Source of the DNA: Verrucomicrobiota bacterium
Lineage (GTDB): Bacteria > Verrucomicrobiota > Kiritimatiellia > SS1-B-03-39 > UBA6053
Length of the DNA stretch: 64,000 bases
Reading direction: 5' to 3'
Assembly (NCBI GenBank): GCA_020831625.1
Contig: JAFIGD010000018.1
Coordinates: forward strand, 1-64,000
The notes under the pieces are model-generated. The model was not told the DNA's origin, made no database searches, and saw only the letters and a list, made by a program, of their open reading frames with translations. Positions 5,325-52,286 of this stretch are shown here, one piece after another. Made by a program: the position numbers and the translations under genes. The first letter of the stretch is position 1. Each line of letters starts with the position of its first letter.

Positions 5325-5348
5325 AAATAAATATATTTATATTTGACA
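5325..5348 (+). promoter_or_regulatory. AT-rich box ending in ATTTGACA upstream of the phosphatase pair
   Basis: An AT-only stretch of 17 bases runs directly into ATTTGACA (5341-5348), 104 bp before the chosen start of the next gene. TTGACA matches a -35 element; no strong -10 follows at 17 bp. Similar boxes precede at least five other transcription units here (10011, 21948, 24434, 34801, 39656). Confidence 0.55.
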
Positions 5349-5452
5349 GGGGCGGGTGGAATTTGTTTTAGTGCCGCCATTCGCTTATGGAGACATATTA
5401 TATGAGATTATCAGACTATTCAACGCCCGGCGCGTTTACAGGGCATAAACAA

Positions 5453-7763: not shown

Positions 7764-10007
7764 ATGACACATTCCCAAACCCGCACACACGGAAATTTGA
7801 CACCCGCGCGGCTGACAGCGCTGGCGGTTTTTGCCGCGGTGTCTCTGTTGAGCCGGCACCGGGCGGACGCCTCAAGCTTTGAGGCCTTCCGGGCGGACCG
7901 GCTGCTCCTGACCTGGCAACGGGATCCAGCCACCACCATGACGATCCAATGGCTGAGCGAGGGGCACACGAATCCCCCTGTGGAGGATGTGTCGGCTGAG
8001 GACGAAAGCCCGCAGGCGCTGCCCTATGTCGGGCCGGTGAGGGTTGACGGCTCAGGGGGATGGGCCGACCGTGGACTGGCCGTGCCGTATCTGGTCAACC
8101 ACAACCGCCATGTTCCCGACCCGGAGGTGTTTATGGCGAGGGCCCGGCTCGGGTGGAACGAGCAGGGCGTGGTTGTTCTCGCCGACGTGCGCGCCCGGGA
8201 ACGGTTTGAACAGGATGAAACGAACAGGCTTGTGCACGGCGATAGCCTCTCCGTCTATATCATGGACGGGAACGCCCGTTTGCAAGTGGTCGCCTCGCCC
8301 GGAGGACTGGCGGACCAGCCCGAGGCCCGGTACACCTTCCACGATACAGGCGGCCGTGTCGCGGATGCCGACGACCTGGAGGTGGAACTTGCCGCCCGTC
8401 ACGCGAATGAGGGGAAAATCTACCGGATCGAAATGCTGGTGCCCTGGTCGAATCTGAACCGGACCGATGTCGAAGCGGGCATGGATCTGCATCTGCAATT
8501 GCATGTGATCAACCATGACGGCCCGCGAGGCAATCTGGACCGCGATTGGGCGGCGATGAACGCGGGACATCTTCGCCATCCCCAATATTCGCACCGTGAG
8601 CATCAGGCCGTGGCCTTCCGACTCGCCCCGCGGGACGCCGCCGTTCCCCCGCCCATGCAGACAAGAACCTCTGTGGACGCCCCGGGCGACGCGGTGCGGG
8701 TGCAAGTGGAAGCGGGCGGGGAGCTGCTCGGTCGAACGGTCAACCTGTATTCCGGGCGGACGCGGGTCGCCTCCGGCGGGTTCACGCCCTGGAGACATCA
8801 GACCCGCGCGACGATCAACGTTCCCGCGCCGCCGGAGGGGCACCGCTGGGGAACCATGGAGACCCGGCTGGATGACGGCACGCCGCTGGGGGTGGTGACG
8901 ATTCCGCAATGGTACATGCAGCGCCCGCCCGAACCGGTGCAAGTGCGCTACTGGAAAACCGGTTCCGATGAGCACCGCACCGCGGTGACCCGCGTGAAAC
9001 AAGTCGCGCAGTGGCAGAGGAAGTTCACCCAGCGCGTGGAACTGACCGGCCTGGAGCCCGACACGGAATACCGTTTTCAGGTTGAAGGCTACGACGATTA
9101 CGGTTTCCGCACCATGCCCGCCACTCTGGATGAGCCGATACGTCTGGCCATCGGAGGCGACACCCGCCATAGTCAGCAGTCGATGGAGCGGACCAGCCGG
9201 ATGGTGATGGAACACAACCCCCGCGCCATCATCTGGGGCGGGGATCTGGCCTATGCCAACGGCGTGGCGTCCAATCTTTACCGCTGGCGGGAATGGTTCG
9301 ACGCGAACCACAACACCCTGATTGACGAGCGTCGTGTGGTCACCCCCATTGTGGTTGCGATCGGAAACCATGAAATGCGGTCCGGCTACTACTTCCGGCA
9401 CAGCGACTACGCGCCGACCGACGAATGGCGGGAAAGCGTCGCGCCCTATTTTTACTCGTTGTTCGCGTTCCCGGGTCACCCCGGTTACAACGTGCTCGAC
9501 TTCGGCGATTACCTGAGCCTGATCATCCTCGACAGCGATCACACCGCCCCGGTCGGCGGTGAACAGACCCGCTGGCTGGAGCGGGTGTTGGCCGAGCGTC
9601 AGCATGTGCGGCACCTGTTTCCGGTGTATCATGTGACCGCCTATCCCTCCGCCCGGGATTTCAATGACCGGACCTCCGCCGCGGTTCGCCGGCACTGGGT
9701 GCCGCTGTTTGAAGAATACGGGGTCCGTCTCGCTTTTGAGAATCATGACCACACCTACAAGCGGACGCATCCGATCCGAAACGGTGAAGTCGTCTCCCCG
9801 GAGGAGGGGGTCGTGTATATCGGCGACGGCGCCTGGGGGGTCGGCCTCCGCAGGGTACACAACGTCGAAGAGACCTGGTATCTCAAGGAGGCCCAATCAA
9901 TTCTGCACGCTTTCATTGTGACCCTGCACCCCACGCACGTTGAGGTCAAGGTTCACAGTGCAAACGGGGATTTGATCGATGAAGTTGACATCACGGTGTC
10001 GCCTTAA
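7764..10007 (+). CDS. Secreted purple-acid-phosphatase-like enzyme with inserted CBM9-type domain
   Basis: 747 residues, a tandem paralogue of the preceding gene with the same order: signal peptide, first strand of the phosphatase N-terminal domain, inserted CBM9-type domain (about 84-270), resumed N-terminal domain, metallophosphatase domain. All five metal blocks are intact: Asp466 in GGDTRHS, Asp494 in GGDLAYAN, Asn535-His536 in GNHE, the histidine of VYHVTAYPS, and His661/His663 in NHDHTYKR. The family hydrolyses phosphomonoesters at a dinuclear metal centre; the sugar-binding insert and the surrounding glycan genes suggest a phosphorylated or otherwise esterified carbohydrate as target (inference). 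AAGGAG lies just upstream of the ATG. It is 94 bp behind its twin and may share its promoter. Confidence 0.85.
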   Translation: MTHSQTRTHGNLTPARLTALAVFAAVSLLSRHRADASSFEAFRADRLLLTWQRDPATTMTIQWLSEGHTNPPVEDVSAEDESPQALPYVGPVRVDGSGGWADRGLAVPYLVNHNRHVPDPEVFMARARLGWNEQGVVVLADVRARERFEQDETNRLVHGDSLSVYIMDGNARLQVVASPGGLADQPEARYTFHDTGGRVADADDLEVELAARHANEGKIYRIEMLVPWSNLNRTDVEAGMDLHLQLHVINHDGPRGNLDRDWAAMNAGHLRHPQYSHREHQAVAFRLAPRDAAVPPPMQTRTSVDAPGDAVRVQVEAGGELLGRTVNLYSGRTRVASGGFTPWRHQTRATINVPAPPEGHRWGTMETRLDDGTPLGVVTIPQWYMQRPPEPVQVRYWKTGSDEHRTAVTRVKQVAQWQRKFTQRVELTGLEPDTEYRFQVEGYDDYGFRTMPATLDEPIRLAIGGDTRHSQQSMERTSRMVMEHNPRAIIWGGDLAYANGVASNLYRWREWFDANHNTLIDERRVVTPIVVAIGNHEMRSGYYFRHSDYAPTDEWRESVAPYFYSLFAFPGHPGYNVLDFGDYLSLIILDSDHTAPVGGEQTRWLERVLAERQHVRHLFPVYHVTAYPSARDFNDRTSAAVRRHWVPLFEEYGVRLAFENHDHTYKRTHPIRNGEVVSPEEGVVYIGDGAWGVGLRRVHNVEETWYLKEAQSILHAFIVTLHPTHVEVKVHSANGDLIDEVDITVSP

Positions 10008-10010
10008 AAA

Positions 10011-10032
10011 AATTAAAAAATAATTTTTGACA
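10011..10032 (+). promoter_or_regulatory. AT-rich box ending in TTTTTGACA upstream of the PEP-CTERM gene
   Basis: Immediately after the stop of the previous gene, AATTAAAAAATAATTTTTGACA matches the box seen before several other transcription units. It ends 74 bp before the next ATG and contains TTGACA at 10027-10032. Confidence 0.5.
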
Positions 10033-10106: not shown

Positions 10107-10922
10107 ATGCAAATCACAAAACTGTGTTCGCCGCCACTGATGCGGTCCCTGAAATCCGCCGCGACGGCGGCATGTATCGCGCTTTGTGCCGCGATCCCCG
10201 CATACGGGACCTTAATCTTTTTCGACGACTTTGAAGGAAACACGATTGGATCGGCGCCCGCCGGATGGACCATCGGCGGAACCACGGCTTCAGTCGAGAC
10301 GGCCGGCCAGTCCGCGGACGGGGCTGCCGGAGATGACAGAGGGGTTCAACTGACGCCAACCGGCGGCAGTATCGGCACTGCGAATCCCAGAATTGAGCGG
10401 TCTTTCAGCCAGGGAACAAACAGTGAACCCTTGAGGATTCAGTTTGATTTTATGTACCTAAACAGCGGCATCAGCAATCCAACCATTCAACTGCGCAGTT
10501 CGGACCCGGTTCAACCGGGGATCAATTTGGCCATGAAGCATGCTCAAGCTGGTGAAGACGGGGCCCGAGTGAACGAAGGGTCTGGATTCGTGACATTGAA
10601 CACCGTAATTGATCCAGACATCTGGTACAGATATACCATCACCACAAATGCTGCGGAAGCTTCAGATAACACCTTTGACCTGAGTATTCAAAGTTTGTCC
10701 GACTCCAGCGCGAATTACAATTTCACCGGGCTGGGGTTTCACAACAATCTCACTTCCTTTTCCTCGATTCGTTTTGTTTATAACAGCACGAGCACAACTG
10801 CAAATGACACTTTCTTCATCGACAATGTTTCTGTTTCTTCGATCCCCGAGCCGTCCTCTTTAATCCTGATGGCTTTGGCGGGGGCGGGATTATTAGTCTA
10901 TCGCAACAAAAAACGCGGGTAA
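10107..10922 (+). CDS. PEP-CTERM-sorted LamG-like protein
   Basis: 271 residues. A signal peptide (about 1-33) is followed by a single beta-sandwich domain of concanavalin-like type and a C-terminal sorting tail: IPEPSSLILM, a hydrophobic span, then basic residues RNKKRG. PEP-CTERM tails are processed by an exosortase that anchors or exports proteins in exopolysaccharide-making Gram-negative bacteria; no exosortase is in this window. Its middle part (IQFDF, then INLAMKH, VIDPDIWYRY, and FDLSIQSL) matches a module in the large beta-helix protein at 39764, suggesting a shared glycan-binding unit. CGGAG precedes the ATG, and a hairpin terminator follows at 10952, so this is a monocistronic unit behind its own AT-rich box. 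Precise role unknown. Confidence 0.85.
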   Translation: MQITKLCSPPLMRSLKSAATAACIALCAAIPAYGTLIFFDDFEGNTIGSAPAGWTIGGTTASVETAGQSADGAAGDDRGVQLTPTGGSIGTANPRIERSFSQGTNSEPLRIQFDFMYLNSGISNPTIQLRSSDPVQPGINLAMKHAQAGEDGARVNEGSGFVTLNTVIDPDIWYRYTITTNAAEASDNTFDLSIQSLSDSSANYNFTGLGFHNNLTSFSSIRFVYNSTSTTANDTFFIDNVSVSSIPEPSSLILMALAGAGLLVYRNKKRG

Positions 10923-15883: not shown

Positions 15884-18145
15884 TTAAGGGGTTAACTGAA
15901 TCGTCTCGCCCGCGGAAAGGGTGACGCTGGAGACCGCCGTTTCCGCGCCCCGCGGATATAGAGAGCCTGAGCGAAAGCGGCAGACTCCATCGCGGGATGC
16001 GGAAATCTCCACCGAGGTCAGTTTGGACTCCCGCCATGTGAGACTCACCTCGAAGCCGCCGCGGGCCTGAAGTCCCTTCACCTCTCCTTCGGGCCAGGCG
16101 GAGGGCAGGGCGGGCAGAAAGCGGAGACCGCCGCCGTGACTTTGCAGCAGCATTTCACAGACGGCGGCGGTGTACCCGAAGTTCCCGTCGATATTAAACG
16201 GCGGATGGGTGCTGAAGAGCGAATCGGTGCAGTGCGAGGCAATCGTGCTCAACATGCGGAGGGCATCGTCGCCGCGTCCGAGCCGGGCATACAGACAGGC
16301 CAGCCAGGCGGCGCTCCATCCGGTGTGCCCCCCGCCGTGGGCGAGCCGGGTGTCCAGGGTTTTGTTGACGGCCTTCGCCAGGTCCGGGGTGTCGAGGAGA
16401 TCGATTTGGTGCGCGGGAAACAGCGCCCAGGCGTGGGAAATATGGCGGTGACCGGGTTCAGCCTCCTCTCTTGGCTCCGACCATTCCATCAGCCGGCCGT
16501 CCGCCTGAATACCGGGAGCGGGGAGTTTGGAGAGGGCCGCCCGCACACACTCGGTGAAGGGGAGTGTTTCCTCAAGGCGCCCGGCGGCCTCAAGATAGTG
16601 GGTGAACAGTTCGCGGATGATTTGCATGTCCATGGCCGGGGAGAGACAGAGCCGGGCGGCTCCGCCGTTGGCCAGGCGGTAGGCGTTTTCCGGGCTGGAA
16701 CTGGGGCCGCTTTGCAGCAGACCGTCTTCTCCCTCGAACAGGTAGGCCAGAAAAAATTCAACCGAGGGTTGAAAGACCGGCAGCGCGGTTTCGGCGAGAA
16801 ACCGGGTGTCGCCGGTGTAGAGGAAGTGCTCCCAGAGATGGTCGCAGAGCCAGGCCAGACCCAGCGGCCACAGTCCGGTGGAGGGGGTGTCCGCAGGTGC
16901 GGCAAAATGCCAGGGGGTGGAAAGATGATGCAGGACCGCGCCGGGACAGTCGTAGTGATCGCGGGCCGCCTGCCGGGCGGAGGGGAGGGCGGCGCGCATC
17001 CAGTCGAATAGAGGCCCCTGACATTCAAGAAGGTTTGCCGGACCGGAGGACCAATAACACATCTGGATATTGATATTGGTGTGGTAGTCGCAATTCCAGG
17101 GCGGATCGAGGCGGGCGTTCCAAATTCCCTGAAGGTTCAGGGGGAGGCTACCGGGGCGGCTTCCCGCGATCATGCAGTACCGTCCGAAGTGAAAAAGGTT
17201 CTCCGTGAGATCGGGTTCCAATTTCCCTCCGGACCGGAGCGCGTCAAGCTGTTCGGGAATGGTGCGCGGGTTCTCCGGCCGGGGAGATAAACGCAGGCTC
17301 ACCCGGTTGAACAACCGCTGATGATCCCGGACATGGCGCTCCCGAAGTTCGTCCCAGGTGAAGTCCTCGGCATCGCTCAGTGCCTTCATTGCGGCGGCGG
17401 GTGGATCGGTATGCCGATAGTCGGTGGCGGAGGCGATCCGGTATTCAATCACATTCGCGTCCTCCACGATCAGCCATTCGCCCTGTGTTTTCACGTGTCC
17501 GTCGGTGTTCGCAACATTCAGGCATGCGCAGAAACGGGTGCCGTGACTTCCGGCCCGGCCGTGAAAAGAGAGGGTTCGCGCTGAGACCGGGGTGCGTTGG
17601 CTTGACTCGGGCCGGTCCCAATGGGCCATCAGCGTAAGCGGGGGACCTTCAACCGTCCACCGCATCACCACCAATTGATCCGGATACGAAACAAACACCT
17701 CCCGGGTCACCCGGCGTCCTCTGGCGCGATAGTGAACGCGGGTGATGCCGGTTTCCAAATCCAGGCTCCGCTGATAGTGGCTGTACTCGCGGTGGGTTTC
17801 CGGTCCCGGTTTGATCATCACCGTTCCCAGCGGCTGATAGGGCTCCACCCGGGAGGGAACCCCCATGAAGGCCTGTTCCGCCAGAAACTCCGCCTCTTCG
17901 GCCTGTCCGTTGGCCAGCAGTTCACGCAGGCGGTTCAGGTGAAGGTGGGCCTCCGGGTTGCGGTGGTCGCCCGGAGCGCGGGACCAGATTGAATCCTCGT
18001 TGAGGACCAGGCATTCCCAGACCGGGCTCCCGAAGACCAGCGCGCCCATACGGCCGTTGCCGAGGGGCATGGCGTGTTCCCATCGGTCGGGGAATCCGAC
18101 AGGCTTATTCCAATTCAGTAGATGGGGATTCACAGGGGACATCAT
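15884..18145 (-). CDS. GH95 alpha-L-fucosidase (or alpha-L-galactosidase), cytoplasmic
   Basis: 753 residues. GH95 enzymes invert the linkage and remove terminal alpha-1,2-type L-fucose or L-galactose. Family landmarks are in order: AMPLGNGRMGALVFG near 25-39 and LNEDSIWS near 48-55 in the N-terminal beta domain; NLQGIWN and then NINIQMCYW (about 338-368), holding the catalytic Asn pair; SGPSSSPEN; the MEWSEP acid region (about 556) with EPGHRHISH; and NIDGNFG (about 650). No signal peptide, so it likely works on imported oligosaccharides, as does the GH29 enzyme. Its start overlaps the stop of the secreted esterase gene upstream (ATGA at 18142-18145), indicating translational coupling. Confidence 0.92.
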   Translation of the reverse strand: MMSPVNPHLLNWNKPVGFPDRWEHAMPLGNGRMGALVFGSPVWECLVLNEDSIWSRAPGDHRNPEAHLHLNRLRELLANGQAEEAEFLAEQAFMGVPSRVEPYQPLGTVMIKPGPETHREYSHYQRSLDLETGITRVHYRARGRRVTREVFVSYPDQLVVMRWTVEGPPLTLMAHWDRPESSQRTPVSARTLSFHGRAGSHGTRFCACLNVANTDGHVKTQGEWLIVEDANVIEYRIASATDYRHTDPPAAAMKALSDAEDFTWDELRERHVRDHQRLFNRVSLRLSPRPENPRTIPEQLDALRSGGKLEPDLTENLFHFGRYCMIAGSRPGSLPLNLQGIWNARLDPPWNCDYHTNINIQMCYWSSGPANLLECQGPLFDWMRAALPSARQAARDHYDCPGAVLHHLSTPWHFAAPADTPSTGLWPLGLAWLCDHLWEHFLYTGDTRFLAETALPVFQPSVEFFLAYLFEGEDGLLQSGPSSSPENAYRLANGGAARLCLSPAMDMQIIRELFTHYLEAAGRLEETLPFTECVRAALSKLPAPGIQADGRLMEWSEPREEAEPGHRHISHAWALFPAHQIDLLDTPDLAKAVNKTLDTRLAHGGGHTGWSAAWLACLYARLGRGDDALRMLSTIASHCTDSLFSTHPPFNIDGNFGYTAAVCEMLLQSHGGGLRFLPALPSAWPEGEVKGLQARGGFEVSLTWRESKLTSVEISASRDGVCRFRSGSLYPRGAETAVSSVTLSAGETIQLTP

Positions 18146-19056: not shown

Positions 19057-19377
19057 GCCACAGGTTTTAGAAGCAGGCGATCTGATTTCAAGCATTAAAT
19101 AATAAAAATAACATTTGATATTTTTCCGCCTGTCAGTTGTGTTTTAACCACGAATAAACACCAATTAACACGAAGGAAAATCCGGGAAGTTTCACGCGAC
19201 CTCCTTCGGCTATGGCGGGCAATAGCATATATTCATGGATTGATTCGCTCCCAAACGCGGCCTTCGGCGGAGCCATGCAGCCGTACCGGTTGCCCTCCTT
19301 GATTTATCAGTCAGCTTATTTATTCCTCCCAATCGTCGGCGAGGTTTTCGATGCGCGAGACCATGAAGTGCTCGGGT
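19057..19377. other. Non-coding spacer with AT-rich promoter-like region and three 10-nt imperfect repeats
   Basis: The stretch at 19085-19125 is AT-rich (ATTAAATAATAAAAATAACA and then TTTGATATTTTT) and lies where the promoter of the esterase-GH95 unit should be. At 19146-19175 three imperfect 10-nt units occur in a row: AACCACGAAT, AAACACCAAT, TAACACGAAG. Between about 19190 and 19320 there is GC-rich sequence in which CCTTCGGC recurs. I see no gene in it, apart from the possible frame-shifted tail of the sulfatase at 19320-19380. Confidence 0.5.
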
Positions 19378-21947: not shown

Positions 21948-21988
21948 TTTGTGATTAAAATATAAAAATAAAATAATAATATTTGACT
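21948..21988 (+). promoter_or_regulatory. AT-rich box ending in ATTTGACT upstream of the beta-helix gene
   Basis: TTTGTGATTAAAAT, further A/T bases, then AAATAATAATATTTGACT end 110 bp before the ATG at 22098. The last 17 bases match the box at 24447-24463 almost exactly, including AATAATAATATTTGAC. Confidence 0.6.
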
Positions 21989-22097: not shown

Positions 22098-23111
22098 ATG
22101 AAGAAGAATCGACGTGAAATGTTTCGTCGCGGATTGGCCCTGATTTTCAGCTTTGGCGCATGCAACGCCCCGGCCTGGACAAATCCCTCCGGCATTGATG
22201 TGGCGCGGGCGCCGTTCATCACCGCCGCGGATGAAGAGGTGCACGAACTGGTGATACGCCATGGCGACATGGAATCGGTGCAACGCCGCATCGAGGAGGC
22301 GAGGGCCTCTCATCCCGACGCCGTGTTGGTGATTCGCTTGGACGGACGCTTTGTTGTGGGGCAGACTTCCCTGCAACTCGGTTCACGCATGAATCTGCTT
22401 CTGGAGCCCGGAGCCGAGTTGGTGGCGGATTCCGAATGGGCGGGCAATGTGATCGAAATACGCGACGCGGAATTGTCCGGTGTGTACGGCCCGGGTCCGG
22501 GGCACCCCCTGGCGGTGATCGACGGCAACATGCGGTCACCGGTGGTGATTCGCGTGGTCAACAGCGCCAAAATTCATTTTTCCTATTTGGACATTCGAAA
22601 CGCGCTGGGGGAGGGCATCCGCTTTCAAGGGCGCGGCGGCGACCGTTTCGGCGAGGCGAGTTCGATTGTCCACTGCCTGATTCGGGACCATAGCGGCTCC
22701 GGTGCGCAAATCAGCGACGCGGAACAGTTTGTATTTATACACAACGAGCTGAGATCGAACAGCGGGCACGGGGTTGAGATTACGTCCCACACCTCCGTCG
22801 TGGCCGACAACCTGTTTCGCGGGCATGAGGGATTTGGAGTGGTCAGCCATTCCGAGAACGGCACGGTGGCCCGCAACACGATTCACGGCGGAAAGGGCAT
22901 CCGCCTTTCGGGTCGCAGTCGCTTGAATCTGGTTACCTACAACCGCCTGTTGCGTAACGAGGGCGTGGCCATTGCCGTGGACGGACGGCAGAACTCCGTT
23001 TATTACAACGAGCTGGACCGGCCGGATCAGCCGTTCACGATCGGGGGCTGCGACAATATCATCGCATCGCATCGAAACGTGTCCGGTGGCGACGTGGTGG
23101 CGATCTTGTGA
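22098..23111 (+). CDS. N-terminal half of a split parallel beta-helix protein
   Basis: 337 residues. A weak signal-like N-terminus (MKKNRREMFRRGLALIFSFG) is followed by a helix-forming lead (VQRRIEEARASHPDA) and then right-handed beta-helix turns such as IVHCLIRDHSGSGAQISDAE and NTIHGGKGIRLSGR. The frame ends with TGA at 23109-23111, but the same frame continues open for about 1.2 kb, and the residues just after the stop (NNHYFNPPTRSNRHTDEVIV) look like normal coding sequence. The following gene is therefore the second half of the same protein. The two halves are also homologous to each other. Function is unknown; the fold suggests polysaccharide binding or cleavage. Confidence 0.7.
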   Translation: MKKNRREMFRRGLALIFSFGACNAPAWTNPSGIDVARAPFITAADEEVHELVIRHGDMESVQRRIEEARASHPDAVLVIRLDGRFVVGQTSLQLGSRMNLLLEPGAELVADSEWAGNVIEIRDAELSGVYGPGPGHPLAVIDGNMRSPVVIRVVNSAKIHFSYLDIRNALGEGIRFQGRGGDRFGEASSIVHCLIRDHSGSGAQISDAEQFVFIHNELRSNSGHGVEITSHTSVVADNLFRGHEGFGVVSHSENGTVARNTIHGGKGIRLSGRSRLNLVTYNRLLRNEGVAIAVDGRQNSVYYNELDRPDQPFTIGGCDNIIASHRNVSGGDVVAIL

Positions 23112-24344: not shown

Positions 24345-24346
24345 TG

Positions 24347-24397
24347 TGAGATCCGGGGGTGAGATCCGGGGGTGAGATCCGGGGGTGAGATCCGGGG
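24347..24397 (+). repeat. Four tandem copies of a 13-bp unit
   Basis: TGAGATCCGGGGG is repeated at 24347, 24360, 24373 and 24386, the last copy slightly degenerate (CA replaces GT). It lies next to the sulfatase relic and 37 bp before the AT-rich box of the large operon. Tandem units of this size can vary in number by slippage. Confidence 0.9.
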
Positions 24398-24433: not shown

Positions 24434-24465
24434 ATTGTGTAGAATTAAAATAATAATATTTGACA
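24434..24465 (+). promoter_or_regulatory. AT-rich box ending in ATTTGACA upstream of the transporter operon
   Basis: ATTGTGTAGAATTAAAATAA and then TAATATTTGACA end 71 bp before the ATG at 24537. The whole arrangement, including ATTGTGTAG, recurs at 39656-39687, and the 3' part recurs at 5325, 10011, 21948 and 34801. TTGACA at 24460-24465 is a perfect -35 consensus; no good -10 is obvious. Confidence 0.65.
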
Positions 24466-26610: not shown

Positions 26611-28638
26611 ATGATGATGAAACGAAAACGAATCCTGTCCCGGACCATTTCGAAGCGTATGCGCGGAGATGCCGGAAGTTTGATCCCCGGAAGTTTGATT
26701 CTCCTGGCGGGAGGCTGTCTGTGTTTCGCGGGATCGGTGTCCGCGGACGCGGGGCCCATGATCCCCCGCGACGCCTGGCCGGCCTCCTGGTTTGAGCATC
26801 CGAAAACCGCATCCGAAATGGGCATCACCGAATTTTCCCAGGCTCCGGAATGGGAGCAACGGGAGCGCGAGGGCACGCTGCCGCCTTTGTCGGAACGGCT
26901 GCCGGCGGATCCGCCGGTGATTGAGCCGTATGCCGAGACAGGGCGGTACGGGGGATCGGTCCGCACGGCGGGATGGCTGGAGTACTATTTTAATCCGCTG
27001 GAGTTTCCGTTGCGCATGTGTCCCGAGGGGGCGACCACCCGTTACAGTCTGGTGAAAGAGGTTGAGGCCAGTGACAATCTCACCACCTATACCCTGCGTT
27101 TGCGCGAGGGGATCCGCTGGTCGGACGGGCATCCCCACACCGCCGATGATTATTTGTTTTGGTTTGAGCATGTGTATATGAACCGGGAATTGACACCGGT
27201 CCGCTACTCCCCGTTTTATGACAACACCCGGATGCGGGCACCGGATCCCCACACCCTGGAAATTGTGTTTGAGGAACCCAACGCGTACTTTATGCAGCAA
27301 TTGGCGCACCCCTCGCCCCAGTTTCGGATGCCGCTGCCCGCGCATTACGCCAAGACCTATCACCCTGATTTTGCCGACGGGGAGGAGATAAAGCGACGGA
27401 CCCGGGATCTGGGACTCATGAGCTGGACTTCGCTTTTTGACGCGGCGGTGATCCGCGGGGTTCACGGAAACAGGGTGTTCGATCTGCCGGTATTACGGGC
27501 GTACCGGTTGGAGCGCGTTCACGGCCGGAATTTTTATTACAGGCGGAATCCCTATTATTGGAAAATCGATCCCGCGGGTCAACAGCTCCCCTACATCCGG
27601 GAGATTGCCCGCACGGACGGGATTACCCGTGAAATGGCGGTGGCCCAGGCCGCCTCGGGGGCGTTGACGCTTTCGGCCACCTTCTTTCGCTCTTCCGATA
27701 TCCCGTTTTTGTTGGAAAACGAGGTGCGCGGAAAGTACCGGACGCTGATTTGGAAAAATTATCTGGGCGCGGACACCCTGCTGGCGCTGAACCAGACTCA
27801 TCCGGACCCCGGAATTCGGGAAATTATCGGCGATGTCCGTTTCCGCCGGGCCTTGTCGCTGGCCATCGACCGTGATGAAATCAATGATATTTTCTATTTC
27901 GGTCAGGCGGTTCCCCGGCAGATGTTTGTGGCGCCCATGAGCAAATTTTATGAAGCGGATGTCGCGCGGAACGCCTACGTGGACTTTGACCCGGAGGAGG
28001 CCCGCCGCCTGCTGAATGAAATGGGACTGGTGGATTCGGACGGGGACGGTTTCCGCAACCGTCCGGACGGGTCCAGACTGAATTTGATCGTGGAAACCAC
28101 CGGTGAGGAGGAAACCATGGAGCTGGTGCTGGAGCAATGGCGGGAGGTTGGATTGAATCTGTTTCTCCGGCCCTCCACGCTGATGCTCATGCGGCAGCGG
28201 GGGCAGGGGAATCAGTTGCAAATGATCGCCTGGTACGGGGACCGGGTCGGTGACACCCTTTTTCCCGCGGATCCGCGCTATTTTGTCCCCACGGTTCTGT
28301 CCGGAGAAGCTGCGACCTGGGGGCTTTGGGCGGTTTGGTTTCAAACCGGCGGGGCCGAGGGAATCGAGCCTCCGGACGAAGCGAAAGAGTTGATGGCCTG
28401 GTGGATGGAAATGCGTTCCAGCCCGGACCGCGACCGCCGGATTGAGCTGGGTCGAAAAATCATGCGGAGCCAGGCGGAGAATCTTTGGACCATCGGAACC
28501 GTCGGCTTCAGTCCCAAACCGGTGGTGGTGTCGAATCGACTCCGCAACGTTCCCGAACAGGGGTACTGGGGATGGGACACCAAACTGATTCTTCCCTATC
28601 ACTCCGAAACCTTTTTCCTTGAATCCGAGACGCCGTAA
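26611..28638 (+). CDS. ABC transporter substrate-binding protein, peptide/oligosaccharide (SBP_bac_5) type
   Basis: About 675 residues. An N-terminal signal (hydrophobic core GSLILLAGGCLCFAGSVSA) is followed by a family 5 solute-binding fold: LRLREGIRWSDGHPHTADDY, FEEPNAYFMQQLAHPSP, and RFRRALSLAIDRDEINDIF are typical. This family serves Dpp/Opp peptide importers and, in several bacteria, oligosaccharide importers. Placement between a beta-helix enzyme and a full Dpp-type permease/ATPase set in a glycan region suggests a sugar fragment as ligand (inference). It is longer than most members, with an extra N-terminal segment (residues about 45-90). The permease gene starts 14 bp after its stop. 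Confidence 0.9.
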   Translation: MMMKRKRILSRTISKRMRGDAGSLIPGSLILLAGGCLCFAGSVSADAGPMIPRDAWPASWFEHPKTASEMGITEFSQAPEWEQREREGTLPPLSERLPADPPVIEPYAETGRYGGSVRTAGWLEYYFNPLEFPLRMCPEGATTRYSLVKEVEASDNLTTYTLRLREGIRWSDGHPHTADDYLFWFEHVYMNRELTPVRYSPFYDNTRMRAPDPHTLEIVFEEPNAYFMQQLAHPSPQFRMPLPAHYAKTYHPDFADGEEIKRRTRDLGLMSWTSLFDAAVIRGVHGNRVFDLPVLRAYRLERVHGRNFYYRRNPYYWKIDPAGQQLPYIREIARTDGITREMAVAQAASGALTLSATFFRSSDIPFLLENEVRGKYRTLIWKNYLGADTLLALNQTHPDPGIREIIGDVRFRRALSLAIDRDEINDIFYFGQAVPRQMFVAPMSKFYEADVARNAYVDFDPEEARRLLNEMGLVDSDGDGFRNRPDGSRLNLIVETTGEEETMELVLEQWREVGLNLFLRPSTLMLMRQRGQGNQLQMIAWYGDRVGDTLFPADPRYFVPTVLSGEAATWGLWAVWFQTGGAEGIEPPDEAKELMAWWMEMRSSPDRDRRIELGRKIMRSQAENLWTIGTVGFSPKPVVVSNRLRNVPEQGYWGWDTKLILPYHSETFFLESETP

Positions 28639-28652
28639 CCCGGAAAAGCCGA

Positions 28653-29636
28653 ATGATGAATTACACCATACGCCGAATATTGCTGATGTTCCCGCTTTTG
28701 GGGGCGATTTCCATTCTGGTGTTTGTGCTGATGGACCTTCCTCCCGGGGACGCGGTTTCCGCCCGGCTGGACATGCTGGCCATGGAGGGGCAGCCGGTTT
28801 CGGAGGAGCTGGTGACCGCTCTCCGCGCCCGCTATCATCTGGATGACCCGCTCTTTATCCGCTATCTTCGGTGGGCGGGGGGATTCCTTCGCGGGGATTT
28901 GGGATATTCCATTACGATGGAGCAACCGGTGAATGAGTTGGTGCGGGAGCGGCTGGGCTACACCGTGGTGATTTCCCTCCTGTGTGTGCTGTTCACGTGG
29001 CTGGTGGCGTTTCCGGTCGGTTTCTTTTCCGCAATCCGCCAGTATTCCATACCGGATCATGTGTTCACCTTTCTGGCATTTCTGGGTATGGCCACGCCGA
29101 ATTTTGTGTTGGCGATTGTGTTGGTTCATTATTCCCACAACCTGTTCGGGACCAGTGTGGGAGGGCTCTACTCGTTTGAATACGAGGGGGAGCCCATGAA
29201 TACGGCGAAGTTTGTCGATATTCTACGGCACATTTGGATTCCCGTGGTGGTGGTGGGGACCGCGGGCACGGCGGGGATGGTGCGGACGCTGCGGGCGAAC
29301 CTTCTGGATGAGCTGCGGAAACCGTATGTCACCACCGCCCGCGCCAAAGGAGTGGGGCCGATCCGCCTGATCCTTAAATACCCGGTGCGGATCGCCATCA
29401 ATCCGTTTGTGAGCACCATCGGCTGGCTGCTTCCGTCCCTGTTTTCCGGGGACGCGATTGTCGGGGTGGTGCTGGGCCTGCCCACCATCGGCCCGCTGCT
29501 GCTGAGCGCGGTGATGCAGATGGATATGACGCTGGCGGGCAGCCTGCTCATGCTTATGAGCATTCTAACGGTGTTTGGAACCCTTCTTTCCGATCTTTTG
29601 CTGGCCGTCGTTGATCCAAGGATACGATACGAATGA
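28653..29636 (+). CDS. ABC transporter permease, DppB/OppB type
   Basis: 327 residues with six membrane spans and the Opp/Dpp B-type opening (YTIRRILLMFPLLGAISILV). A cytoplasmic EAA-like loop is present around YVTTARAKGVGP. The ending LLLAVVDPRIRYE is typical. It forms the inner-membrane channel with the next gene product. ATG overlaps with that gene (ATGA at 29633-29636) imply coupled translation. Two consecutive ATGs occur at 28653; either could start the protein. Confidence 0.93.
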   Translation: MMNYTIRRILLMFPLLGAISILVFVLMDLPPGDAVSARLDMLAMEGQPVSEELVTALRARYHLDDPLFIRYLRWAGGFLRGDLGYSITMEQPVNELVRERLGYTVVISLLCVLFTWLVAFPVGFFSAIRQYSIPDHVFTFLAFLGMATPNFVLAIVLVHYSHNLFGTSVGGLYSFEYEGEPMNTAKFVDILRHIWIPVVVVGTAGTAGMVRTLRANLLDELRKPYVTTARAKGVGPIRLILKYPVRIAINPFVSTIGWLLPSLFSGDAIVGVVLGLPTIGPLLLSAVMQMDMTLAGSLLMLMSILTVFGTLLSDLLLAVVDPRIRYE

Positions 29637-30832
29637 CTGATTTCCCCCTCCTGCCTTTTAAACCTGTTACCGACCCGGACCGCGCGGACATACCCGCCGA
29701 TGATATGCCCGCCGATGACATATCCGCCGATGACATATCCGCCGGGGACGGGTCCGCGGACTACACCTCGCAGCGCGTACTGATCCTGCGAAGGTTCCGC
29801 CGTCACCGGCCCGCGATGGCGGGCGGGATTGTCCTGCTGCTTTTTTACATGCTGGCGATGTTTTGCGAATTTTTTTCACCCAATCTGCCGACCACCCGGA
29901 ACCGGGAGGCCGTCTATGCGCCGCCTCAACGTGTCCGGTTTGTCGACGCGGAGGGGCGGTTTTCTGTCCGGCCGTTTGTGTATGCCCACAAACCCGTTGC
30001 GGGCACCGGGCTGGAGCGCCGTTACGAACCGGATTTCGACCGGAAACAGCCGCTGCATCTTTTCGTCCGCGGAGAACGGTATCGATTCTGGGGCCTGTTT
30101 GAAACCGACCGGCGTTTGTTCGGGTCTCCGGAGGGTCCTGTGTATCTGTTCGGCACGGATTCGCTGGGACGGGATCTGTTCAGCCGAGTGATTTACGGGG
30201 CCAGAATTTCTCTGACCATCGGCCTGATCGGGGTTACGCTCACCTTTGTGATCGGTGTGTTGCTGGGCGGCGCGGCGGGATATCGGGGCGGATTCATTGA
30301 CGCGGCCGTTCAACGCGTGATCGAAGTGCTGATGTGTATTCCCCAACTCCCGCTGTGGATGATTCTCAGCGCCTCGCTTCCCCTGCACTGGTCGCCCCTG
30401 GCGGTGTATCTGGGGATCACTGTGATATTGTCGCTGCTGGGGTGGACCGGACTGGCCCGGGAGGTGCGGGGGAAATTTCTTTCTCTGCGGGACGAGGATT
30501 TCGTGGTGTCGGCACGGCTGTGCGGCACGAGTGAATACAAAATTATCACCCGCCACCTGCTGCCTCAGTTCACCAGTCATATTATCGCCAGAGCCACCCT
30601 GGCGATTCCGGGCATGATTCTGGGTGAAACCGCGCTGAGCTTTTTGGGGATCGGCCTGCGCGCCCCGGTGGTCAGCTGGGGGGTGTTGCTTCAGAAAACC
30701 CGGAATTTCGAGGCGGTCGCCCTTTATCCGTGGCTGTTGATCCCGGCCTTGTTTGTGATCGTTGTCGTCCTTTCTTTCAACCTTCTGGGCGACGGGCTTC
30801 GTGATGCCGCCGACCCCTATTCCACCATTTGA
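29633..30832 (+). CDS. ABC transporter permease, DppC/OppC type, with repetitive N-terminal extension
   Basis: 399 residues, longer than the usual roughly 300. The first 50 residues contain a short acidic repeat (ADDMP, ADDIS, ADDIS, AGDGS) encoded by four 15-bp units, then basic residues and the first membrane span (MAGGIVLLLFYMLAMF). A periplasmic insertion (about residues 80-170) precedes the core, which carries FGTDSLGRDLFSRVIYGARI and ending FNLLGDGLRDAADP, hallmarks of DppC. The start overlaps the upstream permease by four bases. The following ATPase starts 8 bp after the stop. Confidence 0.92.
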   Translation: MTDFPLLPFKPVTDPDRADIPADDMPADDISADDISAGDGSADYTSQRVLILRRFRRHRPAMAGGIVLLLFYMLAMFCEFFSPNLPTTRNREAVYAPPQRVRFVDAEGRFSVRPFVYAHKPVAGTGLERRYEPDFDRKQPLHLFVRGERYRFWGLFETDRRLFGSPEGPVYLFGTDSLGRDLFSRVIYGARISLTIGLIGVTLTFVIGVLLGGAAGYRGGFIDAAVQRVIEVLMCIPQLPLWMILSASLPLHWSPLAVYLGITVILSLLGWTGLAREVRGKFLSLRDEDFVVSARLCGTSEYKIITRHLLPQFTSHIIARATLAIPGMILGETALSFLGIGLRAPVVSWGVLLQKTRNFEAVALYPWLLIPALFVIVVVLSFNLLGDGLRDAADPYSTI

Positions 30833-30839
30833 TGCGCGT

Positions 30840-31862
30840 ATGTCCGACTCCTCACTCCTTTTAGATGTACAACACCTCAAGGTCGATATTTGCCGGGACG
30901 GGGTGACGGCCCATCCGTTGAACGACATCAATTTCCAGGTGGAAAAGGGGGGCGCCGTGGGGCTGGTGGGGGAAAGCGGATGCGGGAAAACCATGAGCGC
31001 GTATTCACTCCTGGGATTGCTGCCTCCGGGCGGGCGGGTGCTTGGAGGCGACATTCTGTACCGCACCTCGAAGGGAGACGTTCTGAATCTGGCCAAACTC
31101 GATCCCGACGGAAAAGAGATGCGCCGGATCCGCGGCGGGGAAATCTCGATGATTTTTCAGGAACCGATGACCGCGTTCAGTCCGGTACACACCATATATA
31201 ATCAGATTGCCGAGTCGATCCGTCTGCACACCGACACTCCCAAGCGTAAAATCAGGGACCGCGCGGTGGAATTGCTTGATCTCGTCGGCATCCCGGATCC
31301 GGGGGAGCGGGTGGACTGTTATCCCTTTCAGTTCAGCGGGGGGATGCGACAGCGGGCGATGATCGCCATGGCGCTGGCCAGCAATCCCTCCCTGCTGATC
31401 GCGGATGAACCGACCACGGCGCTGGATGTGACCATTCAGGCGCAGGTGCTGCGGCTGCTGAAGGATCTTCAGAAGAAATTAAACCTGTCCCTGGTGCTCA
31501 TCACCCATGATCTGGGGGTCGTCGCCCATATGGTTGAGCATGTGTACGTGGTGTACGCGGGCCGGGTGATTGAATCCGCGCCGGTCGAAAAACTGTTTTA
31601 CGCCCCCGGACATCCTTACACCCGGAACCTGTTGCGGTCTGTGCCGCGGTTGGACGGCCCCAAAGTCCCTCTCGCGCACATTGAGGGTTCCGTTCCCGAA
31701 CCCTCCCGGATTCCGCCGGGCTGCCCCTTTCATCCCCGCTGTAAAGAGAGGGTGGGGCCGGTTTGCCTGCAAAAACTTCCGCCCGCTTTTGAGCTGTCGG
31801 AAAACCATACGGCCTGCTGTTTTAAGCACAGCCCGGCCGGGGAGAAGACACCGCATGAATGA
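30840..31862 (+). CDS. ABC transporter ATPase, DppD/OppD type
   Basis: About 340 residues. Walker A GESGCGKT (44-51), signature FSGGMRQR, Walker [13 protein letters not shown] and the switch histidine in THDLGVVA are all intact. The C-terminal cysteine-containing oligopeptide-transporter tail (CPFHPRC) is present. The start at 30840 was chosen because homology begins at once there; an upstream ATG at 30804 would overlap the permease. It overlaps the second ATPase gene by 8 bp, and the two should form the heterodimeric motor of the importer. Confidence 0.93.
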
Positions 31863-32715
31863 GTTGAGCGATGAGCTGTTGCTGAACGTGGAAAATCTGC
31901 GGAAATATTTTCCGGTGAAGAAAGGGATCCTCCGGCGGACGGCGGGAGAGGTGAAGGCGGTCCGTGACGTGTCTTTCGAAATCAAACGCGGTGAAATCCT
32001 CGGACTGGTGGGAGAAAGCGGTAGCGGCAAAACCACCACCGGCCGTATGATTTTAAGGGCGATTGATCCCACCGCGGGACGGATTCTTTTCCGGCAGGGG
32101 GAGCGGGTGGTGGATATCGCCCAACTGGACAAAGCCGGACTCCGGGAAATCCGCAAGGATGTTCAGATGATTTTCCAGGATCCCAATTCGTCCCTGAATC
32201 CGCGGATGACCGTGTTGGAGCTGATCGCGGAGCCGCTCCGCGCGCACGGCTGGAGGGAAAAGGCCTGCCGGGAGCGGGTTCGGGAATTGCTGGATCTGGT
32301 CGGGCTGCCGCCGGGAGCGGTCCAGCGTTTTCCCCACGCCTTCAGCGGAGGCCAGCGCCAGCGAATCGGCATCGCGAGGGCCCTGGCCCTGTCGCCCTCC
32401 CTGATTGTGGCCGATGAGCCGGTTTCCGCTCTGGATGTTTCCGTGCAGGCCCAGATTCTGAATTTGCTGCTGCGCATCCGGAAGGAGATGAATTTGACGT
32501 TTTTATTCGTGGCCCATGATCTGGGCGTGGTGCGGTATCTGTGCGATCACGTGGCGGTGATGGTGAACGGAGCCCTGGTGGAAAAAGGTGAAACGGAATC
32601 GCTGTTCCGCAATCCCCAGCATCCGTACACCCGGTCATTGATCGACGCCTCTCCGCCTCCAGATCCGCATGCGGACTGGCCTTTGTTTCATCAACCTGAA
32701 AAAGAAAGTGTGTAA
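31855..32715 (+). CDS. ABC transporter ATPase, DppF/OppF type
   Basis: 286 residues. Walker A GESGSGKT (53-60), signature FSGGQRQR, Walker B SLIVADEPVSALD and AHDLGVVRYL are complete. The N-terminal LRKYFPVKKGILRR is characteristic of DppF/OppF. It is slightly short because the usual C-terminal cysteine tail is missing, ending in QPEKESV. The start at 31855 overlaps the preceding ATPase by 8 bp; the next gene begins immediately after its TAA. Confidence 0.93.
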   Translation: MNELSDELLLNVENLRKYFPVKKGILRRTAGEVKAVRDVSFEIKRGEILGLVGESGSGKTTTGRMILRAIDPTAGRILFRQGERVVDIAQLDKAGLREIRKDVQMIFQDPNSSLNPRMTVLELIAEPLRAHGWREKACRERVRELLDLVGLPPGAVQRFPHAFSGGQRQRIGIARALALSPSLIVADEPVSALDVSVQAQILNLLLRIRKEMNLTFLFVAHDLGVVRYLCDHVAVMVNGALVEKGETESLFRNPQHPYTRSLIDASPPPDPHADWPLFHQPEKESV

Positions 32716-34758
32716 ATGTACAGCCTCACGTTGAAAAATCCCGGGGGGAGGGCGTATGTGCTGATGCCCGGCGCCCTGTTGAACGGGAACCGTTTTGAAT
32801 CCATACCGGCCCCCTATTTGCCGATGTATCCGGCGAACCGGTCGGGACCGGACATGCCGACGTTGATCAGCAACGTTCCGCGTTTGGCGAAGCGGTTGGA
32901 TGAAGCTTCCCGGGTTCAGTTTTTCGCCGGGCACATGTCCTGGCCGGCACTGATGTGCTGGCATCCGGACACCCGGGAGGCCTTGTTTGTGACCGCGCCC
33001 TCGCATGTGGAGGGCTATGAGGTGCTTTGGGAACTCTCTGAGCCGGAAGGACACGAAACGCTCGGCCTGGTTCTGTGCGCCCCCGGGGCGCGGGACAGCC
33101 GTTATGTGCCGATTCGAACGGACGAGCCCGCTCAGGATCCCTGTCCCCCGGGCCTTGACTTCGAGATCCCGGCAACCGTAATCCGTTTCCGGGCGGAGGA
33201 TTTGCCGTCGTTTTTTGAACAGGTCTTTTCGCTCTGGGCGGAGGCCCTGGGGCAACATGCCGCCCCGGCAAGCTGTCCCCTGTCCCGCGCGGCGGACATC
33301 ATCACCGGGAAATACGATGAGGAAAACTGGTTTGAGGATTGGGGATTGTATCTGACCGCGCCGGATCCCGACGGGAAATATCCGTATCAGACCGGCTGGT
33401 GCGGGGGAGGGATCGCGGCCTATGCGCTGGGCGCGGCTCCCGGGTCTCTGACCCGCCAACGCGCCGCCGAAAATCTGCGGCGGGTCTGCGCCGAATCCGC
33501 GACCCCGTCGGGCCTGCTGTACGGCTGCCGCCGCCGCGCGGGCTGGGTTCCTGATTTTGAAGGAGTCACCGCCCCCCCGCACGCGCGGCGCTGGACGCTC
33601 ACCCGCCGTCAGGGTGACGCGCTTTATTATCTCGCCAAAGATCTGCTCCGCCGCCCGCCCGAATCCGATGACCCGCGCCTCGGAACCGTCCGGAATCTCG
33701 CCTCGTCACTGGTCAAATGTTTCTTGTCACAAGCAGCTGACCTCCGTCCTACGACCTCCGACCTCCAACCTCCGACCTCTCCCTGGGGGCATTATCTGGA
33801 CAACGACACCGGAGAAATTGCGGCGGGCGGAACCGCTTCCGGCGCGGTCATTCCCGGGGCCCTGGCACTGATGCACCTGCTCGACGGCGACGCGGAAATG
33901 CTGGGTGTCGCGGAATCCGCCGCGGAATTCTATTTTCAAAACTTCACCCTGAAGGGGATGTGCAACGGAGGACCGGGCGACGCGCTGGGATGTCCCGACA
34001 GCGAGTCGGCGTTCGCGCTGATGGAATCTTTTGTCTGGCTTTGGCAGGTGACCGGAAAACCGGACTGGCTTGACAAAGCCCGCGCGGCGGCGCAACAGGC
34101 CCTGCTGTGGGTGATGCCTTATGGCTGGCTGTTTCCGGCCGACACGGAATTCGGTCGGCTGGGCATCGACAGCACCGGCACCGTGTTCGCCAACGTGCAG
34201 AACAAGCACAGCGCCCCCGGGATTTGCACGCATTCCGGCGAGGGGCTGCTGCGCCTTTTCCGCGCCTCCGGCGACCAACGCTTCCTCCTTGCGCTGCGGG
34301 CGCTTGTCCGGGCGCTTCCCCAGTGTCTGAGCCGGGAGGACCGGCCTGTCCACGATCCCGCCGGCCACCCGCTGCCTCCGGGCTGGATCAACGAGCGGGT
34401 CAACACCAATGACTGGGACAACAATGTCGGCGGGGTGTTTTGCGGCAGTTGCTGGTGTGAAATCTCCCTGTTGCTGTCTTACCTGGAACTCCCCGGCGTG
34501 GTGGCGCAGCCGGACACCGGGCTTGTTTCCTGTCTGGATCACGTACACGCGGAATGGGTGGACCCCGACCGCCATGCTTTGCGGATCACCAATCCCACCC
34601 GGTACCCCGCCCGTGTCCGGTTACTCCTCGAAACCGCCGGTTCCGCCAAAAGTACGCCGATGAATCCCGGAGACGTGGAAACCCTTCCGGTTGTGCACCT
34701 GGAACCCGGTGAACAAATCATTCTGCGGGTATCTGAGTGCACGGATTTTTCCGGATAG
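32716..34758 (+). CDS. Cytoplasmic protein of unknown family, last gene of the transporter operon
   Basis: 680 residues, no signal peptide or membrane span. An N-terminal beta-rich part (about 1-190) is followed by helix-rich sequence with GWCGGGIAAYALG, then LALMHLLDGDAEML and ICTHSGEGLLRLFRASGD, suggesting an alpha/alpha-toroid as in many glycosidases, epimerases and lyases. I do not recognise the family. Starting directly at the stop of the ATPase gene implies that it handles what the importer brings in. At about residues 340-353 the DNA (33735-33778) is a run of GACCTCC-like repeats encoding DLRPTTSDLQPPTSP, which looks like an in-frame insertion. The C-terminal 80 residues form a small beta domain (VRLLLETAG). 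Confidence 0.75.
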   Translation: MYSLTLKNPGGRAYVLMPGALLNGNRFESIPAPYLPMYPANRSGPDMPTLISNVPRLAKRLDEASRVQFFAGHMSWPALMCWHPDTREALFVTAPSHVEGYEVLWELSEPEGHETLGLVLCAPGARDSRYVPIRTDEPAQDPCPPGLDFEIPATVIRFRAEDLPSFFEQVFSLWAEALGQHAAPASCPLSRAADIITGKYDEENWFEDWGLYLTAPDPDGKYPYQTGWCGGGIAAYALGAAPGSLTRQRAAENLRRVCAESATPSGLLYGCRRRAGWVPDFEGVTAPPHARRWTLTRRQGDALYYLAKDLLRRPPESDDPRLGTVRNLASSLVKCFLSQAADLRPTTSDLQPPTSPWGHYLDNDTGEIAAGGTASGAVIPGALALMHLLDGDAEMLGVAESAAEFYFQNFTLKGMCNGGPGDALGCPDSESAFALMESFVWLWQVTGKPDWLDKARAAAQQALLWVMPYGWLFPADTEFGRLGIDSTGTVFANVQNKHSAPGICTHSGEGLLRLFRASGDQRFLLALRALVRALPQCLSREDRPVHDPAGHPLPPGWINERVNTNDWDNNVGGVFCGSCWCEISLLLSYLELPGVVAQPDTGLVSCLDHVHAEWVDPDRHALRITNPTRYPARVRLLLETAGSAKSTPMNPGDVETLPVVHLEPGEQIILRVSECTDFSG

Positions 34759-34800: not shown

Positions 34801-34827
34801 TGTGAAATTTAAAAAATAATATTTACA
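34801..34827 (+). promoter_or_regulatory. AT-rich box ending in ATTTACA upstream of the PEP-CTERM gene
   Basis: TGTGAAATTTAAAAAATAAT followed by ATTTACA ends 67 bp before the ATG at 34895. It aligns with the box at 24438-24465 apart from small gaps; TTTACA replaces TTGACA. Confidence 0.5.
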
Positions 34828-35720: not shown

Positions 35721-36770
35721 TCAGGACTGGCCGCCCTCCACCAGGGCGGGCGGGATTTTGATGGTTTGAGGCGGTTCGTCGGGATTTTCGATGCGCCAGA
35801 GCAGTTGCTGAACCGCCCGTTTTCCGATTTGAGACGCATGAATATCCAGAGACGCGGGAATGGGGGAGAGGGTGGCCAGAATCGGCTCCTCGTTGTTGCA
35901 GGAGATAACGGTCAGATCTTTCCCGGGCGTCAAGCCTCTGATATGCATGGCGGAATACAACGCCTGCGCCACCATGTCCGCCTCAGTGAACACCGCGGTC
36001 GGCCGCGGTTTCAGGGCCATCAGCGCATCCAGGGTTTCGAGCATGGCCTCCTGATGGATTCCATGCACCCGGCGGGTGATGAAGAGCAGATCGCGGATCA
36101 ACAGCTCCGCCGTCCCTCCGTTTTCCTGCACGGTGTTTTTAAAGTCGATGCCGCGCTGCTGAAAAAAGAAGTCCGTGTCCCCGCAGATGTGCCCGATGAA
36201 CGCCGTATGCCGGTGTCCCTGTTGCAAGAGGTATTCCGCAGCCATCACGCCCAGAAGCCGGTTGTCGTAGGTGACCCGGTCCCAAGGTTCACCGGGCTGC
36301 GCATTCCGCATCATTTGCACCACGGGCACCCCTTTCAACTCTTTCAAATTCTGCATCGGCCGGGTTCCTCCGAACATCAGGGCTCCGTCCACGGTGGCGG
36401 GAAGGATCTTTTTCTTTTTTTTCTGCAGAAACTCCTGATTTAAATGCCGGAGGATGAAAATTTTACCGGCTTTGTTTACGGCGTTTTCCACGCCGTGCAA
36501 CAGATCGGCATACACGGGAGCGTAAAGGGTCGAGAGCGTGATCCCGGGCACGATTAGAGCGATACGATTGGTGCGTTTGGTTCCGGGCGGCTCGTCAGGG
36601 TCTTTTTTTGGCCGTCCGGGAGGGTTATGAACATAGCCAAGTTCTTTGACGGTTTTTAATACAATATCACGGGTCTCCGGAGCGACCCGGGGCAGTCCCC
36701 GGAGCGCGAGTGAAACGGTGGAGGGTGAAACACCCGATTTTTGTGCGACTTCTTCAATACTGACTGGCAT
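35721..36770 (-). CDS. LacI-family transcriptional regulator
   Basis: About 349 residues. The N-terminal helix-turn-helix (SIEEVAQKSGVSPSTVSLAL, 4-23) and hinge (KELGYVHNPP) are typical, followed by a periplasmic-binding-protein-like sensor (IALIVPGITLSTLYAPVYAD, later VISCNNEEPILATLSPIPAS). These proteins repress or activate sugar-use genes in response to a sugar ligand. It is the only regulator in the window, so it is the best candidate to control the shared AT-rich boxes, although those boxes are not the classic CG-centred LacI palindrome. The start at 36770 follows AAAGGAAA. A longer frame from 36830 is less likely because the domain begins at MPVSIEEV. A lysine run (KKKKKK) lies in the sensor domain. 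Confidence 0.92.
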   Translation of the reverse strand: MPVSIEEVAQKSGVSPSTVSLALRGLPRVAPETRDIVLKTVKELGYVHNPPGRPKKDPDEPPGTKRTNRIALIVPGITLSTLYAPVYADLLHGVENAVNKAGKIFILRHLNQEFLQKKKKKILPATVDGALMFGGTRPMQNLKELKGVPVVQMMRNAQPGEPWDRVTYDNRLLGVMAAEYLLQQGHRHTAFIGHICGDTDFFFQQRGIDFKNTVQENGGTAELLIRDLLFITRRVHGIHQEAMLETLDALMALKPRPTAVFTEADMVAQALYSAMHIRGLTPGKDLTVISCNNEEPILATLSPIPASLDIHASQIGKRAVQQLLWRIENPDEPPQTIKIPPALVEGGQS

Positions 36771-36927
36771 CCGATGGTTTCCTTTCACGGAATCGTTGCT
36801 GAGGTAATCATTCCTGCTGACATAATTCACATACGGTATATCCGGCGAAAATCCCAGTAAAATCGCATATTTTTTTTATATTTTTTCGTCTTGATTTCAT
36901 GATGAATTTAAATAATAAATTTTTATT

Positions 36928-37692
36928 ATGCCGAGTTTCAGATACACTAAAGCCGGAAAGCAGGGGTTCACCTTAATGGAAATGCTTGTGGTTGTGGTGA
37001 TTCTGGTCTTGCTGGCGGCGTTGATTTCCGGGGGCGTGAACCGTTCCATCAACCGGGCACATGCCGCCACCTGCATGAGTAATCTTCGACAAATCGGGAA
37101 TCTGGTTACGATCTACGCGATGGATAACAACGGGTATTTCCCGTGGGCCCGTCCGGCGGAAACCGCTGAAAGAGATCAGGGATGGAACTGGAACAGTTAC
37201 GGGGCCGCTCCGATCGGCAACCGGGAAGGGTGGAACGGACGGACGTTTGGAGGGGAGCTTCCCTATCTGGCGGGTTATAACGAGGAGGGCGGGATGTCGG
37301 TTGAAGAATACCGAAGGCCGGGCAGCCGGATCATTTTCGACTGTCCGGTCGGCGCGGGCTCTGCGCTGGCCGGGGAAAAGGGATATGCCATGAACCGGGT
37401 GGTCGGCGGAATCGCCGGCAGAGACGATTATCGACTGACTCTTGCGGGATTGCCGAATCCGGAGAGGGTTATTTTGATTGTGGACAATTCACGCGGCGAG
37501 GATCCGGACCCGTATCCGAACACGCAAACGCCGCCCTGGTTTTCGCCCTCAATGTCCGGGTACGCCTCCTGGACGAACACCATCGGGTTTCACCGTCATT
37601 CGAACAAAGCGCAGATGCTGTTTGCGGACCTGCATGCCGGCGCCATGTCCAGGGAGCAGGTGACGTTGGACAATATCAGATCGGGGCTCTAA
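36928..37692 (+). CDS. Type II/IV pseudopilin-like protein (prepilin N-terminal motif)
   Basis: 254 residues. The prepilin peptidase motif is G13-FTLME, with the conserved glutamate at mature position 5, followed by a hydrophobic helix (MLVVVVILVLLAALISGG). The body ends with a variant of the processing-associated motif, HRHSNKAQMLFADLH. Such proteins are abundant in Verrucomicrobia, Lentisphaerae and Planctomycetes and are often next to degradative enzymes; the exact role is unsettled. The ATG follows an A/T-rich leader (36901-36927) with no ribosome-binding site, so translation may be leaderless or the start misplaced. It is divergent from the LacI-type regulator. Confidence 0.85.
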   Translation: MPSFRYTKAGKQGFTLMEMLVVVVILVLLAALISGGVNRSINRAHAATCMSNLRQIGNLVTIYAMDNNGYFPWARPAETAERDQGWNWNSYGAAPIGNREGWNGRTFGGELPYLAGYNEEGGMSVEEYRRPGSRIIFDCPVGAGSALAGEKGYAMNRVVGGIAGRDDYRLTLAGLPNPERVILIVDNSRGEDPDPYPNTQTPPWFSPSMSGYASWTNTIGFHRHSNKAQMLFADLHAGAMSREQVTLDNIRSGL

Positions 37693-39655: not shown

Positions 39656-39687
39656 ATTGTGTAGTAATTATAAATATTATATTTTAC
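39656..39687 (+). promoter_or_regulatory. AT-rich box upstream of the large beta-helix gene
   Basis: ATTGTGTAGTAATTATAAAT and then ATTATATTTTAC align over the whole length with the box at 24434-24465. A second GATTGTGTAG at 39699-39708 is followed by ATTTGACA (39709-39716), giving a TTGACA at 39711, about 50 bp before the ATG at 39764. Confidence 0.5.
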
Positions 39688-39763
39688 TTTTGAACTCTGA
39701 TTGTGTAGATTTGACAGTATCGATCTCATTACATCCTTCTTCTTCTTAAAGACTTTCAGACTC

Positions 39764-42799: not shown

Positions 42800-42923
42800 A
42801 CGGGGAATATCCCGCTTGTAATCCTCCGGGAGATGTATTAGCCTGAATCAAAGTTTTTATTTATTGTTAAGTGAGCATTCAGTTACCGACAGCATCAGGC
42901 CGATTATTTTGAATCCTTCTCGC

Positions 42924-52155: not shown

Positions 52156-52286
52156 GGGGGTGTTCCTGGTTTTCCGGGGTTTTTTAATATTATCTTTTTT
52201 TTGATTGGATTTGCAAAATAAATATATTATTATTTATGATATTCCTTCATGAATCGACATCTTTTCTGAATCCCGAGGTATTTCAA

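Follow-up and report, generated by a model that had tools for sequence, protein, structure and literature searches.

The stretch analysed here (the window) comprises bases 1-64000 of C12, an 84-kb contig in a 4.89-Mb assembly of 111 contigs. Together with a second contig, C11, C12 encodes fucosidase, GH95, sulfatases, heparinase-like and GH43/GH116/GH28/GH120-like proteins, alongside beta-helix, purple-acid-phosphatase-like, alkaline-phosphatase-like and PEP-CTERM proteins; sulfatases, glycoside hydrolases, beta-helix and PEP-CTERM proteins are found on each of the two contigs, and the two dipeptide-type ABC importers of the locus lie on C12. From this gene content, C12 and C11 would make up a sulfated-polysaccharide utilisation island. 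For the GH95-family protein (window 15884-18145), no relative listed from 289 genomes of the phylum exceeds 46% identity, and open frames of 680, 1166 and 318 aa (window 32716-34758, 42864-46364 and 46249-47205) are without a Pfam match. The A/T tracts, boxes and related elements in the window are as follows.

5325-5348, plus strand: A/T tract with TTTGACA box, before a purple-acid-phosphatase-like gene (start about 5402)
10004-10032, plus strand: A/T tract with TTTGACA box, before the PEP-CTERM gene 10107-10922
19096-19120, plus strand: related A/T stretch ending ATTTGATA (AATAACATTTGATA), directed away from the adjacent minus-strand gene
21954-21988, plus strand: A/T tract with TTTGACT box, before the beta-helix gene 22098-23111
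24434-24442, plus strand: ATTGTGTAG, common to 39656 and 39700
24443-24465, plus strand: A/T tract with TTTGACA box, before the beta-helix gene 24537, which is followed by dipeptide-type ABC importer genes 26680-32715
34805-34827, plus strand: degenerate box, A/T tract with TTTACA and, upstream of the tract, a TTGACA; the PEP-CTERM gene 34895 follows
35721-36830, minus strand: LacI-family regulator, the controller originally suggested
36867-36929: two A/T tracts, neither with TTTGAC, between the LacI-family gene (minus strand) and 36928 (plus strand)
39656-39664, plus strand: ATTGTGTAG, first of two neighbouring copies
39665-39688, plus strand: degenerate box, A/T tract with TTTTACT; TAGATT lies 17 nt downstream and ATTTGACA later, at 39709
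39700-39716, plus strand: second ATTGTGTAG with ATTTGACA directly after it, before a beta-helix gene (start about 39764)
52215-52237: A/T tract without TTTGAC, between the divergent genes 52155 (minus strand) and 52236 (plus strand)

All six A/T stretches that the original prediction placed upstream of genes are present, at or a few bases off the expected positions. Their proposed TTTGACA-type ends are less uniform, since four of the six end in TTTGAC and those at 34801 and 39656 are degenerate (TTTAC variants). In the strict boxes, four in the window and three on C11, a pure A/T tract of 14-31 bp abuts TTGAC, and the -35-like hexamer is TTGACA or TTGACT in the window boxes and TTGACA, TTGACA and TTGACG on C11. 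All seven are intergenic and directed at a gene start (the 10107 gene is absent from our gene calls and was read from the sequence when box orientation was scored). Box and start codon are about 53-110 nt apart. For the first boxed gene a start at 5402, with GGAG just upstream, is more likely than one at 5453. The boxed genes on C11 encode a 630-aa protein without a Pfam match, a PEP-CTERM protein and a sulfatase.

Each of the three copies of ATTGTGTAG (24434, 39656 and 39700) adjoins a box, and no copy was found in 1.79 Mb of other contigs. Aligned by hand, the 24434 and 39656 sites, originally said to align over 32 bases, have 26 matches in 32 positions and a single gap. Four exact repeats of a 13-bp unit, GTGAGATCCGGGG, lie directly upstream of the 24434 box (window 24346-24397).

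Box density was compared in a sample of about 2.15 Mb of distinct sequence of the genome, the exact W12TTTGACA pattern was searched for genome-wide, and genes were called with a home-made caller on 1.9 Mb of the same genome. Plain ATTTGACA is only mildly enriched, with 7 copies in the window against 2.05 expected. The pattern [AT]11TTTGAC occurs four times in the window and three times on C11, that is, seven times in the 103 kb of C12 and C11, for which dinucleotide shuffling gave a mean of 0.02 and a maximum of 1; there are no occurrences in 1.79 Mb of other contigs, nor in a further 0.26 Mb (2.05 Mb in total). Exact W12TTTGACA matches fall in just five places in the whole genome, the window holding three of them and C11 the other two, so the box is not equally frequent before housekeeping genes, in keeping with the original prediction.

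The association of the A/T tract with the hexamer is itself local: A/T runs of at least 14 are followed by TTT|GAC in 7 of 42 oriented runs on C12 and C11 versus 0 of 148 elsewhere (Fisher p=1.7e-5). Upstream regions were taken as non-convergent intergenic regions of at least 100 bp, of which there are 18 on C12 and C11 and 488 elsewhere. The full box is present in 7 of the 18 and in none of the 488 (Fisher p 2e-11), an A/T run of at least 14 in 14 and 36 respectively (p 3e-12), and a run of at least 19 in 12 and 7 (p 2e-15). Counted from run lengths, 45 of the genome's 99 20-W positions fall on C12. The box is real and locus-specific, and taken whole it cannot be put down to chance. Being confined to C12 and C11, it is not a genome-wide promoter consensus. 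Neither is it tied to PEP-CTERM genes as a class, as had been suggested, because the boxed ones among the genome's 54 PEP-CTERM matches are on C12 and C11 only.

Short-repeat arrays are a common feature of this genome, 125 of them being found in 2.05 Mb. The intergenic arrays, present on most contigs, are built from a degenerate heptamer, (ACTCGTC/ATTCGTC)n, or from the hexamers (TAATCT)n and (GATTAC)n (for example L059:7716, L100:9606 and L087:11566). De novo word counts of upstream regions were swamped by short tandem repeats and were set aside.

We lean, with a little better than even confidence, towards reading each strict box as a sigma70-type -35 directly preceded by an UP element of A/T sequence, a type of promoter that would belong to one atypical, perhaps acquired island. 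TTGAC(A/T) would be the -35 hexamer, the upstream half of a sigma70-type promoter, and the A/T-only tract of 14-31 bp would act as an UP element for the alpha C-terminal domains of RNA polymerase, a contact that could permit good polymerase binding despite poor -10 hexamers. The regulon-like look would then reflect the promoter style of one atypical island, the promoters of the rest of the genome being without such tracts. In E. coli, UP elements are A/T-rich sequences located at -60 to -40, upstream of the -35 (PMC2613000). The boxes resemble E. coli promoters of the rrnB P1 sigma70/UP type in having an intergenic A/T-rich tract directly upstream of a TTGACA-like -35 and directed at a start codon. 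They differ in their weak island -10s and in a tract that runs without a gap into TTGAC and reaches 31 bp of A and T alone, the genome as a whole being about 60% G+C.

Elsewhere in the genome, -10-like hexamers that score better than control follow TTGAC[AT] motifs located upstream of genes (p=7e-8), which indicates that ordinary sigma70-type promoters are used by this organism. On the island itself we agree with the original prediction that no common -10 follows the boxes; the best hexamers 16-18 nt past the box are marginally above control (mean -0.56 versus -2.35), with p=0.05 against the rest of the genome and 0.15 against island intergenic DNA. Among 240 genomes of the class, a hand count gave 75 occurrences of W12TTTGACA versus 31 for the reversed control, and across 29 of these loci -10 scores rise at a distance of 16-18 nt (p=2.5e-4), their mean peaking at spacers of 17 and 18. 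Because the island -10s are poor and placing the -10 inside the tract scores no worse, the promoter claim rests mainly on this class-wide pattern. We infer that the box acts as a promoter, that alpha C-terminal domains bind it and that the island was acquired.

The box might instead be the site of a dedicated regulator, or of an alternative sigma factor, that serves the island alone, making it a local regulon under the LacI-family protein at 35721 or another protein; we consider this unlikely. Its presence in 7 of 18 island upstream regions and none of 488 elsewhere, the island-specific occurrence of TTT|GAC after A/T runs (p=1.7e-5), the weak -10s past the box and the adjoining of ATTGTGTAG to three boxes all fit such a regulator, as does a second Opp importer operon, on C39, that is without a box. 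The box, however, amounts to an A/T tract plus a plain -35 and is non-palindromic, and further genomes of the class carry it too, with -10-like hexamers 17-18 nt on. LacI-family operators are typically even palindromes with a central CG. The island has a LacI-family gene within the locus, but no central-CG palindrome lies upstream of its genes: CG-centred 16-bp near-palindromes (7 of 8 positions) are absent from all 35 upstream regions of C12 and C11. A/T tracts without TTTGAC precede other C12 units, the LacI gene included. The non-palindromic box, the lack of an operator-like palindrome and the LacI gene's own upstream tracts speak against the LacI-family protein as controller.

What survives of the original regulon is that the boxes join the transcription units of a single locus and are not found outside it; its trans-acting, LacI-driven part is not supported. 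It is quite unlikely that [A/T]14-31-TTTGAC is recognised by a dedicated DNA-binding protein or sigma factor, which would govern one large sulfated-polysaccharide utilisation island in a PVC-group bacterium as a single, locus-confined regulon. A regulator specific to the island may exist, but the pattern does not call for one, since a -35 with an UP element, set in DNA of atypical composition, accounts for it.

C12 does stand apart in composition. Its RSCU correlation is r=0.959, versus at least 0.986 for every other contig with at least 60 kb sampled, making it the most codon-deviant large contig, and its GC3 is 0.705 versus about 0.74 elsewhere; its tetranucleotide correlation is below typical, though not uniquely so. 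Native intergenic hexamer/heptamer repeats number 0 on C12 versus 5.1 expected (P=0.006), and C73 (120 kb sampled) is likewise without them. These properties suggest that the C12/C11 island was probably laterally acquired or is otherwise of different ancestry; it may be acquired, specialised or misbinned. Against foreign origin, several C12 proteins match best within the sampled part of the same genome, the Opp importer (C39) among them. Other C12 proteins have paralogues on C18, C69 and C76, and beta-helix paralogues lie on C69, C73 and C26; a GH120-like C12 protein has a 63% match on C18. The Opp-type operon on C39 (L287 4181-10533) encodes permeases and ATPases 61-68% identical to those of window 28653-32715 and a binding protein with 47% identity to its window counterpart, and neither a box nor an A/T run precedes it. 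With 289 genomes compared, the nearest relative of the C12 Opp permease is the one on C39.

If C12 and C11 had been misbinned from another organism in which such promoters are ordinary, there would be a regulon in neither. This we think doubtful. In its codon usage, tetranucleotides, density of A/T tracts and content of native repeats, C12 deviates as a misbinned contig might, and the genus relatives G001-G003 have no exact box; footprinting in genus relatives gave only partial, weak matches to the 24537 protein. Against it, the estimated contamination is 1.2%, the Opp, GH120-like and beta-helix proteins of C12 find their best matches elsewhere in the genome, and a 54-nt sequence at one end of C11 recurs at ends of C8 and C35.

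It is very unlikely that the -10 lies inside the A/T tract, with a -35 about 17 nt upstream and TTTGAC in or past the start region. TTGACA does occur 16-17 nt before the 34801 tract, and TTGTGA-17-AATAAT at 21948 and TTTTCA-18-AATAAT at 24434 would suit this arrangement. However, averaged over nine tracts the score falls short of significance (p 0.06 and 0.13), the 10004 tract has its upstream TTGACA within the coding end of the preceding gene, and the recurrence of TTTGAC at tract 3' ends is left without an explanation. The Bacteroidota -7/-33 promoter (TAnnTTTG), with which the box shares a terminal TTTG, fits poorly: by eye, just 3 of the 7 strict boxes carry TAnnTTTG at the 3' end, and the spacing of the -33 TTG is inconsistent.

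Promoter anatomy in Verrucomicrobia looks poorly documented, a limited literature search on mapped promoters having returned only a sigma-factor paper. Read as candidate -35 and UP elements, the boxes provide a short list of candidate promoters for studying the expression of polysaccharide islands, and, in metagenome assemblies, a box that marks one such island so cleanly could serve to spot stretches that were acquired or misbinned.

At their right ends, C12 (L336) and C11 (L172) run out into at least 45 consecutive G, unlike any other end in the sequences examined. These poly-G ends, and the 54-nt end common to C11, C8 and C35, are probably assembly artefacts.
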